Shown here: piece after piece, positions 17,395 through 21,314 of the stretch | How positions within the stretch are numbered: the first letter of the stretch is position 1 | Layout: every line of letters begins with the position of its first letter | Assembly (NCBI RefSeq): GCF_009936045.1 | Contig: NZ_QWEQ01000026.1 | Coordinates: 1-50,996, forward strand | DNA length: 50,996 nucleotides | From: Emergencia sp. 1XD21-10 | GTDB taxonomy: Bacteria; Bacillota; Clostridia; Peptostreptococcales; Anaerovoracaceae | Reading direction: 5' to 3' | Translations under genes and position numbers: made by a program | Notes under the pieces: model-generated | What the model saw: the letters and a program-made list of their open reading frames with translations, nothing else | What the model was told of the DNA's origin: nothing | Database searches by the model: none

Positions 17395-18675
17395 ATGTCA
17401 GAAATATTTGGCGAAAAAAAAGAAGCGAGATGTTCTTTTTGCGGAAAGCCGCAGAGCCAGGTCAGACGTCTTGTGGCAGGACCGGGTCTTTATATATGTG
17501 ATGAATGCGTAGATATGTGTCTGGGCATTATAGAACAAGCTGAGCGTGAGGAACAGATGACGACGCCAGTCCAGCACGTGGGATATCGGCTGCCAAAACC
17601 AAAAGAAATCTTTGATACCCTGTCTGATTATGTCATTGGACAGGATTCTGCAAAGAAGACTCTGGCCGTAGCAGTATACAATCATTATAAGAGAATTAAC
17701 AGAACTGACGATAGAGATAGGGATATTGACCTGCAGAAGAGTAATATCGTCATGATAGGACCGACAGGTTCTGGTAAGACACTGCTTGCCCAGACATTGG
17801 CAAAGCTGCTAAACGTACCTTTTGCCATTGCTGATGCAACAGCATTGACGGAAGCTGGATATGTTGGTGAAGATGTAGAAAACATCCTGCTTCGCCTGTT
17901 GCAGGCGGCAGATTTTGATATAGAAAAGGCTCAAAAGGGCATTATTTATGTTGACGAAATTGATAAGATTGCCAGAAAATCAGACAATCCGTCGATTACT
18001 AGAGATGTCAGCGGCGAGGGCGTGCAGCAGGCGTTGTTGAAAATTCTGGAAGGCACTGTTGCTAATGTACCGCCTCAGGGTGGACGTAAGCATCCGCATC
18101 AGGAGTTTATTCAGTTTGATACCAGTAACGTACTCTTTATTTGCGGCGGCGCTTTTGACGGTCTCAGCAATATTATTCAGAGAAGAATGGGCGAGAGAGT
18201 CATTGGATTTAACCAGACGACGACTTCTGTAAAGAAAGAAGACAGCAAGCTGCTTTCCGAAATTCAGCCGGAGGATCTTTTGAAATTTGGTTTGATTCCG
18301 GAATTTATTGGAAGACTGCCTGTGCTGGTTGCTTTGCAGGAGTTGGACGAGGAAGCTCTCGTACGGATTATGCGTGAACCTAAGAATGCACTGATTAAGC
18401 AGTACAAGAAGCTGTTTGAAATGGATCAGGTAGAACTGGAAATTGAAGATGCGGCTGTCAGTGCAATTGCCAGGAAAGCAATCGAGAGAAAAACTGGCGC
18501 AAGAGGTCTGCGCAGCATTTTTGAGAAAGCGATGAATGATATCATGTTTGAAATTCCTTCAAGAGATGATATCGTAAAGTGTATCATAACCAAGGAGACC
18601 ATCGAAAACGGTCAGGAACCGACGCTGATTGTTGACGAAAGTAAAGATGCGAATAACGAGGCTGATGCCTCATAA
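17395..18675 (+). CDS. clpX: ATP-dependent Clp protease ATP-binding subunit
   Basis: The 426-residue AAA+ unfoldase has the N-terminal zinc-binding domain ([11 protein letters not shown] ... CDECVDMC, residues 13-42), Walker [11 protein letters not shown] (about 120), Walker [11 protein letters not shown] (about 185), the ClpP-docking loop region IGF near residue 270, and a C-terminal small domain. GGGGG precedes the ATG. A GC-rich terminator follows immediately. Confidence 0.98.
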
Positions 18676-18678
18676 AAC

Positions 18679-18698
18679 AGGCGGCGACGGCCGCCTTT
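18679..18698 (+). terminator. clpX terminator
   Basis: A compact GGCGGC-GACG-GCCGCC hairpin then TTT, four bases after the clpX stop. The U tract is short, so read-through into the hairpin array and lon is possible. Confidence 0.65.
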
Positions 18699-18978
18699 CG
18701 TATAGTGATACGACCAGCCTAGCCAATCGCATTTGCTCTTGGGAACTGGTCGTAGAGTGCCACGTGCTAAAGCACTGCACTCCTGACAGGGGACCTACTA
18801 CAATTCGCTTCGCTTATTGAGTTAGGTCTCCCAAAGCATAAGGTTCGTTTAACCAATCACTTGCGTTCTAGGAACGAACCATTATACGACTAGCGTCTAG
18901 CCAATCGCATTTGCTCTTGGGACGCTAAAGCATAAGGTTCGTTTAGCCAATCACTTGCGTTCTAGGAACGAACCATTA
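18699..18978. repeat. Array of seven hairpins with variable stems and two recurring loops, between clpX and lon
   Basis: Hairpins in order: CGTAT/ATACG (18699-18712); CGACCAG/CTGGTCG (18711-18752); GAGTGC/GCACTC with inner GTGCT/AGCAC (18755-18782); GACCTA/TAGGTC with inner CAAT/ATTG (18789-18832); GGTTCGTT/AACGAACC (18842-18880); TAGCGTC/GACGCTA (18891-18927); GGTTCGTT/AACGAACC (18936-18974). Hairpins 2 and 6 share an identical 20-nt loop core, CCAATCGCATTTGCTCTTGG, although their stems differ. Hairpins 5 and 7 belong to a 52-nt direct repeat (18833-18884 and 18927-18978) with one mismatch, in the loop. All pairing is intact in each copy. There is no ORF. It ends just before the lon ribosome site. 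No known family is recognised. Confidence 0.85.
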
Positions 18979-18989
18979 GGAGGAAACAG

Positions 18990-21314
18990 ATGATAGAAGA
19001 AAACAAAGTGATTTTCCCTTGTATTCCGCTTAGGGGTGTATCTATTTTTCCAAATACTGTAATTCATTTCGATGTGGGAAGGGAAAAGTCCATTCATGCA
19101 CTAGAAAAGGCAATGGCGGATGATAAACTGCTCTTTGTATCAACACAGAAAGATGATAATGTCTTGATTCCTACATTTGACGATATTTATACCCTCGGTA
19201 CGATTGTCAGAATCAAACAGATGCTGAAAATTCAGGGTGATGCTGTCAGAGTGCTGGTGGAAGGCGTCTGCAGAGCACAGCTGATACAGCCTCTTGAGGA
19301 AGAAGACTTCATGTCCTGTACGGTAAAGCAGATTGCAGAAGAACTTGACCTGCAGCAGATGTCGCCGGAAGATAAAGCGGCAATGAAAATACTGACGGAG
19401 GCATTTATTGAGTATGCAGCTTTGACCGGTCAGGTCAGTGATGATCTGGTTGATAAGGCGATTTCCAGTGAGAATCCTATCGTTGTAGCAGATAAAATTG
19501 CAAACGAACTTTTGATTCGCACAAGCCGTAAACAGAAAGTACTGGAGACCATGGATTTCTCAGAGAGAATCCGGGTGCTGACTACAATCATTGCTGAGGA
19601 AAATGAAATAGCAGTAATTGAAAAAGAACTTTCTAAGAAAGTAAAGGAAAATATCGACCACAATCAGAAAGAGTACTTCCTCAGAGAAAAGATGAAGGCG
19701 ATTCAAGAAGAACTGGGCGTCAACGAGGACGCAGGTTTGGAAGCCGCAGACTGGCTGAAAGAACTGGAGGAGCTACATCTGTCTGAAAAGGTTGAAGAAA
19801 AAATTAAAAAAGAAATTAACAAGTTTTCCAAGATGATGCCGTCTTCTGCTGAGGCAACGGTAATCAGAAACTATGTGGAGACTATTTTGGCGTTACCTTG
19901 GAATAAAGCATCTAAGGTAAATGTAAACTTGAAAAAGGCTGAAAAAATTCTCAATGAAGATCACTATGGGCTGGACAAGGTGAAAGAAAGAGTGCTGGAG
20001 TATCTGGCTGTTATTCATTTGTCCAAAGCAATAAAAGGACCGATCCTGTGCCTTGTGGGACCTCCGGGAGTAGGAAAAACTTCTATTGCAAGGTCCATTG
20101 CAAAGGCATCCGGCAGAGAATTTGTCAGAATGTCCCTGGGCGGTGTGCGCGATGAAGCTGAGATTAGAGGCCACAGAAGAACCTATATCGGTGCAATTCC
20201 GGGCAGAGTGATTTCCTGCCTGAAAGACGCAGGTACTAACAATCCGGTATTCCTTTTCGACGAAGTAGACAAAATCGGTGCTGATTTTAAAGGTGATCCG
20301 GCGTCTGCGCTGCTTGAAGTGCTGGATCCGGAACAGAACAACACTTTTACAGATCATTTCCTGGAAGTACCTTTTGATCTTTCTAAGGTTATGTTTATTA
20401 CGACGGCAAATTCAACCGATACTATTCCAAGACCGCTTCTTGACAGAATGGAAATCGTAGAAGTACCTGGCTACACCGAGGAAGAAAAGGTAAAGATTGC
20501 TCAGAGATATCTGATTCCAAAGAAGGTGAAGGAACACGGACTGAAGAAGGATAACTTCAAGATTTCCGAGAAAGCAGTCCACGATTTGATTAATTATTAC
20601 ACCAGAGAGTCCGGTGTCAGAAATCTGGAACGGGAGGTTGCAAACCTCTGTCGAAAGGTTGCCCGTAAGATTGTCTCTGCAAAGGCAAAATCCTACAGCA
20701 TTACGCCGTCCAATCTGGAAAAGTATCTGGGAAAACACAGATTCCACTTCGATATGGTAGAAGGTGAGAATCAGGTAGGTGTTACCACAGGACTTGCGTG
20801 GACTGCAGTAGGAGGCGATACCCTGCAGATTGAAACCACTGCAGTTGCCGGCAGCGGCAAGCTGGTTCTGACCGGTCAGTTGGGCGATGTGATGCAGGAA
20901 TCCGCAAAGGCAGGTATCAGTTATATTCGCTCTGTTGCAGATGAGCTGGGCATTGAAGAAGATTTTTACAAGAAATACGATTTGCACGTCCATGTGCCGG
21001 AAGGAGCAGTGCCGAAGGACGGTCCGTCTGCAGGTGTAACTATGTGCACCGCAGTCATTTCCACTTTGACGGGCATACCAGTGAGAAGAGACGTTGCTAT
21101 GACCGGTGAGGTGACCCTTCGCGGAAAAGTTCTTCCGGTTGGCGGTATTAGAGAAAAGGTGCTGGCGGCGCATAGAGCAGGCATTAAGAAAGTGCTGCTT
21201 CCAAAGGATAATGCACCGGACATTGATGAAATTCCAAATACCGTTCGCAGAAAGATGGAATTTGTACTAATCGATCATGTAAGCAGTGCGCTTTCTGAAG
21301 CACTGGTAAAATAA
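18990..21314 (+). CDS. lon: ATP-dependent protease Lon
   Basis: The 774-residue LonA protease has the N-terminal substrate domain (PCIPLRGVSIFPNTVIHFDVG), AAA+ Walker A GPPGVGKTSIA (about residue 355), Walker B PVFLFDEVDKIG (about 415) and the Ser-Lys protease with the catalytic Ser in KDGPSAGVTMCTAV (about 677). It degrades misfolded and regulatory proteins. AGGAGG lies seven bases before the ATG, directly after the last hairpin of the upstream array, so that structure could influence ribosome access. Confidence 0.98.
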   Translation: MIEENKVIFPCIPLRGVSIFPNTVIHFDVGREKSIHALEKAMADDKLLFVSTQKDDNVLIPTFDDIYTLGTIVRIKQMLKIQGDAVRVLVEGVCRAQLIQPLEEEDFMSCTVKQIAEELDLQQMSPEDKAAMKILTEAFIEYAALTGQVSDDLVDKAISSENPIVVADKIANELLIRTSRKQKVLETMDFSERIRVLTTIIAEENEIAVIEKELSKKVKENIDHNQKEYFLREKMKAIQEELGVNEDAGLEAADWLKELEELHLSEKVEEKIKKEINKFSKMMPSSAEATVIRNYVETILALPWNKASKVNVNLKKAEKILNEDHYGLDKVKERVLEYLAVIHLSKAIKGPILCLVGPPGVGKTSIARSIAKASGREFVRMSLGGVRDEAEIRGHRRTYIGAIPGRVISCLKDAGTNNPVFLFDEVDKIGADFKGDPASALLEVLDPEQNNTFTDHFLEVPFDLSKVMFITTANSTDTIPRPLLDRMEIVEVPGYTEEEKVKIAQRYLIPKKVKEHGLKKDNFKISEKAVHDLINYYTRESGVRNLEREVANLCRKVARKIVSAKAKSYSITPSNLEKYLGKHRFHFDMVEGENQVGVTTGLAWTAVGGDTLQIETTAVAGSGKLVLTGQLGDVMQESAKAGISYIRSVADELGIEEDFYKKYDLHVHVPEGAVPKDGPSAGVTMCTAVISTLTGIPVRRDVAMTGEVTLRGKVLPVGGIREKVLAAHRAGIKKVLLPKDNAPDIDEIPNTVRRKMEFVLIDHVSSALSEALVK

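Follow-up and report, generated by a model that had tools for sequence, protein, structure and literature searches.

Modular, stem-variable palindromic repeats of a probably new REP/BOX-like family between clpX and lon in Emergencia sp. 1XD21-10

Among the described systems, REP/BIME sequences of the GTAG superfamily come closest to the repeats reported here. In the accessible part of PMC3733652, they are portrayed as small bulged palindromes, mostly intergenic, single or clustered, with GTAG by the hairpin and stem changes on both arms, and a likeness to the present repeats is found in these traits, for GTAG in part, as well as in termini completing the stop codons of neighboring genes. Here, however, GTAG resides on the C-type hairpin only and not on A, B, or D, few G.T pairs occur while G.T pairing is often reported in PMC3733652, and no association with RAYT is observed. 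As this transposase association was tested and not found, the repeats are not filed as a GTAG REP family. The terms "Clostridi" and "Firmicutes" are absent from the main text of PMC3733652. BOX elements of streptococci, compared by description and not by alignment, are likewise built from modular sub-units, insert into one another, cluster with other repeats and often provide the stop codon at a gene 3' end, but according to the accessible part of PMC3049150 they possess terminal inverted repeats and target duplications, of which none is established here. MITEs such as RUP, as characterized in the same part of PMC3049150, are also short, non-coding and dispersed. In the present case, direct reading of the ends TACGACT and CCATTA revealed no terminal inverted repeats, the two not being inverted repeats of one another, and the repeats are not filed as MITE because inverted ends are missing. 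Mitochondrial repetitive hairpin-forming elements, again compared by description, are intergenic repeated hairpins as well, differing in that they belong to organelle genomes (PMC2800124, accessible part). The best reading of the dispersed family is that it is REP/BOX-like and new. No description of it was found in the literature searched, in which few subscription journals are covered; a REP survey including three Bacillota genomes (PMC12306157) and a set of palindromic structured RNA candidates derived from human microbiomes (250 in number, 230 with a predicted ability to form terminator stem-loops; PMC8040213), both considered in their accessible parts, may leave room for an earlier listing of these units.

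The window, i.e., the whole stretch of 50,996 nucleotides analyzed here, harbors an array of such hairpins between two genes. This array is most probably a local build-up of mobile or formerly mobile, non-coding, modular REP/BIME- and BOX-like palindromic repeats, which, if true, adds a family with unusually precise placement to those already described.

Composition of the array between clpX and lon

The flanking genes are presumably clpX and lon, as named in the original prediction. The features of the gap are as follows.

17395..18675, + strand: ORF of 426 aa, upstream neighbor, taken to be clpX
18680..18695, + strand: hairpin GGCGGCGACGGCCGCC after clpX with a T run, terminator-like, outside the repeat
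18709..18754, + strand: hairpin B1, left end of the array, arms TACGACCAG/CTGGTCGTA, shared CCAATCGCATTTGCTCTTGG loop, 15 pairs, no GU
18752..18782, + strand: hairpin C, stem GAGTGC/GCACTC, GTAG tag at 18752-18755
18789..18832, + strand: hairpin D, GGGGACCTA ... TAGGTCTCCC, local form of the order-wide D hairpin
18833..18884, + strand: linker AAAGCATAAGG, hairpin A1 and CCATTA
18885..18927, + strand: hairpin B2, TACGACTAGCGTC ... GACGCTA, same loop core as B1
18927..18978, + strand: linker AAAGCATAAGG, hairpin A2 and CCATTA, right end of the array
18979..18983, + strand: GGAGG, Shine-Dalgarno (SD) sequence of lon, touching the array end (L121: SD at +0, start at +11)
18990..21314, + strand: ORF of 774 aa, downstream neighbor, taken to be lon

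Six hairpins in the order B-C-D-A-B-A make up the array. The seventh one counted in the original prediction, at 18680-18695, belongs to clpX and is excluded, since equivalents follow clpX in the array-free genomes G002, G007, G009 and G010. In agreement with the prediction, an identical loop core, the 26-nt CTAGCCAATCGCATTTGCTCTTGGGA at 18719-18744 and 18897-18922, is enclosed by two stems that differ and yet pair fully (the TACGACCAG stem versus TAGCGTC/GACGCTA), and the 52-nt copies at 18833-18884 and 18927-18978 differ in a single base. The allegedly unrelated loop type, on the other hand, follows in the third hairpin (D) the same CAAT..ATTG plan as the others, and the distance of about 16 nt proposed between array end and lon has to be corrected to 11 nt, counted to the ATG at 18990; the terminal CCATTA (18973-18978) runs straight into GGAGG (18979-18983). 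Folding of positions 18670-18990 results in -116.3 kcal/mol compared to a shuffle mean of -84.8 (z of -6.9; 0 of 100 shuffles as good). Neither in the window nor at 20 chosen repeat loci did an Rfam family (riboswitch, sRNA, leader) reach the gathering score at the repeats, the only matches at these loci being neighboring tRNA, rRNA and T-box sequences; the window itself gave no significant match, in line with the prediction that this is not a known riboswitch. By reading, a CRISPR array is likewise discounted, as whole units with conserved linkers recur and unique spacers are absent.

Distribution of the units and array-free gaps

The repeat unit of about 94-96 nt consists of TACGACT, hairpin B, AGCATAAGG, hairpin A and CCATTA, the C-D hairpin pair being optional. 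With the array as query, matches were obtained in 7 of 61 genomes, among them the source genome (G000). Exact B units are present on both strands in G000 (10), G004 (10), G005 (31) and G008 (7) and were not found in the other 9 of the 13 genus genomes, with the reversed B pattern as control giving 1 match across all 13. A stricter A pattern retrieved the same four genomes and nothing in the other 292 of 296 family genomes searched. Like REPs, these are dispersed, mainly intergenic palindromes in many copies, though the numbers of exact B units, about 10 in G000 and 31 in G005, are far under the roughly 600 REPs given for E. coli in the accessible part of PMC8266576. In G005, units have grown into tandem arrays, the biggest of which (L174) comprises 10 B and 11 A hairpins, and either C-D pairs or another element, termed E, are nested in reversed orientation within A loops. 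Element E, itself a further two-hairpin element (L034, L185, L164, L182), is also inserted in the arrays at lon in G004 and in G008. Altogether, units dispersed on both strands, tandem and nested, with co-varying stems, bear out the proposed new family of stem-variable repeats.

The D hairpin reaches further. Within the order, its pattern, GACCTACC..GGTTAGGTC, is present in 32 of 393 genomes, which bear the family labels f1, f2, f3, f7 and f10 (reversed control: one genome), and at class level in 9 of 391, namely G000, seven of family f42 and one of f57, where reversed controls matched four genomes, one of them eight times. In viral contigs, 0 matches were obtained with the D pattern, and the at least 120 stretches each matching the B pattern once were treated as chance; these stretches (L208-L327) are excluded from the GTAG, edge, D/A stem and order-wide element counts. 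The exact 20-mer loop core, whose copies the prediction had proposed to count, is present in the genome at the two array sites only, even when allowing 3 mismatches; the linkers and not the core mark the wider family. In public collections, one match to this 20-mer was found, in an apparent coding region from another phylum (L003), and a degenerate version gave one match in viral contigs (L004); both are read as chance, and the array repeats are absent at both places.

A relative of the first 237 aa of lon is present in all 13 genus genomes. The clpX-lon gap contains the array in G000, G004, G005 and G008, while no such units are found in it in the other nine (G001, G002, G003, G006, G007, G009, G010, G011 and G012). 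A second place allowing such a comparison is the 3' end of a gene that presumably encodes glutamate dehydrogenase (GDH), which reads GTATAA in 13 of 13 genus genomes. An array follows straight after GTATAA in G000 and G004, short remnants matching a B end are present in G007 and G008, and nothing alike is seen in the remaining nine. These remnants are flanked by GTATAA on both sides, while other sites share TA or TAA only. Judged from these orthologous gaps, the arrays are read as insertions, although retention by selection could likewise account for their occurrence at lon in four species. In a genome of another genus (G260), a D-type array lies at the GDH stop codon, which is TAG there, with the G coming from the element. 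Beside a gene that is presumably pheT, a C-D element is found at the same place in G007 and G008 (L041, L042), where it supplies the apparent ORF end.

The array is probably transcribed together with lon, upstream of the gene, and may tune its expression. Across the genus, however, it does not form a conserved element in the control of lon. With the array missing in 9 of 13 gaps and its units adjoining many other genes, neither a dedicated small RNA nor an attenuation element for lon is supported.

Placement at gene edges and candidate movers

Ends of A hairpins are placed with base precision. From 33 regex matches to non-tandem A ends, three proved spurious by inspection (L119 first row, L017 and L078; one in a B unit, one within the GDH gene, one by chance). 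All 30 distinct, non-tandem, pattern-visible ends left touch an SD sequence or an opposing stop codon: 14 touch an opposing stop alone and 1 a stop together with an SD, while for the other 15 the signal is an SD only, within 4 nt (14 called by script, one by eye, i.e., GGAG in the second row of L119), the number of independent sites being lower than 30 because several are orthologous in two or three species. Being limited to pattern-fitting ends, the count does not include the TCATTA end at GDH in G000, which touches the stop as well, and the A end of L166 was left out as tandem-like, a B fragment lying between it and the SD. With D elements, the effect is weaker than for A ends: 30 of 74 non-tandem right ends coincide with a stop, a poly-A tract or an SD, compared to 6 of 74 in either case when the position is shifted to +100 or +180, and 44 of 74 show none of these three edges. 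Some D ends lie just past T-box leaders (L345, L354, L355 and L418), and one is 2 nt ahead of a tRNA-Leu gene (L334).

One further D element adjoins a pyrrolysine-type tRNA with anticodon cta called by ARAGORN (L349:1557-1628, G007:C4), and another (L421:443-481, G397) is situated in the spacer of an rRNA operon between tRNA-Ile and the 23S rRNA gene, with near-identical flanks found at L422 and L423. At L335 and L400, both flanks resemble by eye parts of a tRNA gene, as if the element had inserted into one; ARAGORN called no tRNA across the element site at either locus.

These placements pose, if true, the puzzle of how a short element comes to be positioned to the exact base next to stop codons and ribosome-binding sites. 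Under the favored reading of a REP/BOX-like repeat, a unit consists of hairpin B followed by A between fixed linkers, and its A end sits against a gene-edge signal, which is either the SD of the gene that follows or, where the adjacent gene is an opposing one, its stop codon. Units multiply in tandem or take further insertions within their loops. The form recognized would be a DNA hairpin, as folded single strand or cruciform, moved by an enzyme, and Watson-Crick pairing could be renewed in a strand-symmetrical manner, e.g., by copying one arm from the other. A more far-reaching version, which we regard as tentative and clearly less probable, assumes a distinct class of mobile palindromic DNA, found in one order and two further families of the class, that would insert at the borders of expression units (at the TA within a stop codon, past the T runs of terminators, directly before SD sequences or beside tRNA), complete a stop codon with its own first base and be moved by an enzyme other than RAYT. 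Its stems would be copied from arm to arm at the DNA level, allowing them to diverge while pairing remains Watson-Crick.

Alternatively, the repeats might represent GTAG-type REP/BIME sequences for which a RAYT (Y1 HUH transposase) is the mover, in a previously unsurveyed lineage. GTAG indeed precedes the partner (C-type) hairpin in 32 of 89 D elements, the highest count among the 256 tetranucleotides (rank 1; median 2; an earlier count under different scoring gave 27 of 82), the hairpins are bulged, and termini complete stop codons as is known from the accessible part of PMC3733652. By reading, however, the A, B and D hairpins are untagged. Moreover, PF01797 representing the Y1 transposase matches in 8 of 13 genus genomes, 7 of them over the cut-off, but not in G005, which is the richest in exact B units, and among chosen genomes it is present in 8 of 14 bearing D (missing in 6) versus 13 of 14 free of D. 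Neither D hairpins nor B/A units were found in 38 Y1 loci, a part of all Y1 places listed. Thus, with no association to PF01797 presence in these genomes and no repeats at the 38 Y1 loci, RAYT/IS200 is not supported as present mover and this explanation is considered rather unlikely, though RAYT may have acted on the repeats in the past. The sole Y1 transposase match of G000 (L202, G000:C13:94111-94413) has an in-frame stop codon.

Covariation of the stem arms

In 50 distinct B modules with 29 distinct arm pairs, 190 of 203 cells of the arms are Watson-Crick compared to a shuffle mean of 106.1 (sd 7.1, maximum 134 in 2000 shuffles), the cells being non-independent owing to common ancestry of the copies. 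The inner stem of D, read at fixed offset, shows 87 of 112 such cells (shuffle mean 47.2, maximum 67), and stem 1 of A 58 of 72, the latter figure coming without a shuffle baseline and from a 3' arm register set to favor pairing. The arms co-vary, and the outcome for the original prediction is mixed, as it had named absence from close relatives, or a loop core confined to this place with neither transcripts nor covariation, as speaking against its claim: the array is absent in most congeners, but covariation across copies is strong. If true, pairing kept amid sequence change turns into a testable question of DNA-level copying versus RNA selection, which wobble pairs and strand bias can tell apart; strong covariation by itself is no proof of a functional RNA, which may be taken as a warning.

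Cells with G.T versus A.C are few and near balance, leaning slightly to G.T (B 2/1, A 5/3, D 7/5). When whole modules were folded, GU pairs numbered, for the given versus the opposite strand, 19 of 671 versus 52 of 727 in B, 28 of 812 versus 20 of 821 in A, and 8 of 607 versus 10 of 619 in D, corresponding to GU fractions of 1 to 7%. Loop pairs contribute to the asymmetry in B, as G.T accounts for only 2 of the 203 cells in the outer stem, and the asymmetry counts against simple strand symmetry. The small number of wobble pairs hints at a palindrome of the DNA, and we read the palindrome as probably being maintained at this level, although the counts would also be compatible with an RNA role.

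A functional structured RNA, in which selection would act on the fold of hairpins that work either as small RNAs or within the clpX-lon mRNA (for stability, insulation or presentation of the SD), would be in line with the strong fold and stem covariation, the slight lean to G.T, the strand-asymmetric GU in B, and an A hairpin end exactly at the SD of lon in four species. Corroborative is also a double change from GTT/AAC to GTC/GAC between G000 and G004 in the orthologous last A hairpin, and a precedent is given by REP hairpins at up to 15 nt from a stop codon, which affect translation according to the accessible part of PMC12306157. Nevertheless, the same units lie near many other genes in both orientations, most of the genus is without them, wobble pairs are few, and the A and D stems are devoid of a clear strand bias, which makes this explanation improbable. 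Neutral tandem palindromes that were never mobile, arising from replication slippage and template switching with linkers shared by descent, would agree with near-identical tandem units and the mosaic arms in a single array (L174), but are very unlikely given that copies occupy tens of loci on both strands, that D elements are spread over several families, that insertions in reversed orientation are nested in units, and that arrays adjoin a GDH stop codon which is otherwise conserved. Returning to the REP/BOX-like reading, the shared loops agree with the predicted copying of loops into new palindromes, for which the direct evidence is confined to mosaic A units with mismatched arms in the L174 tandem array.
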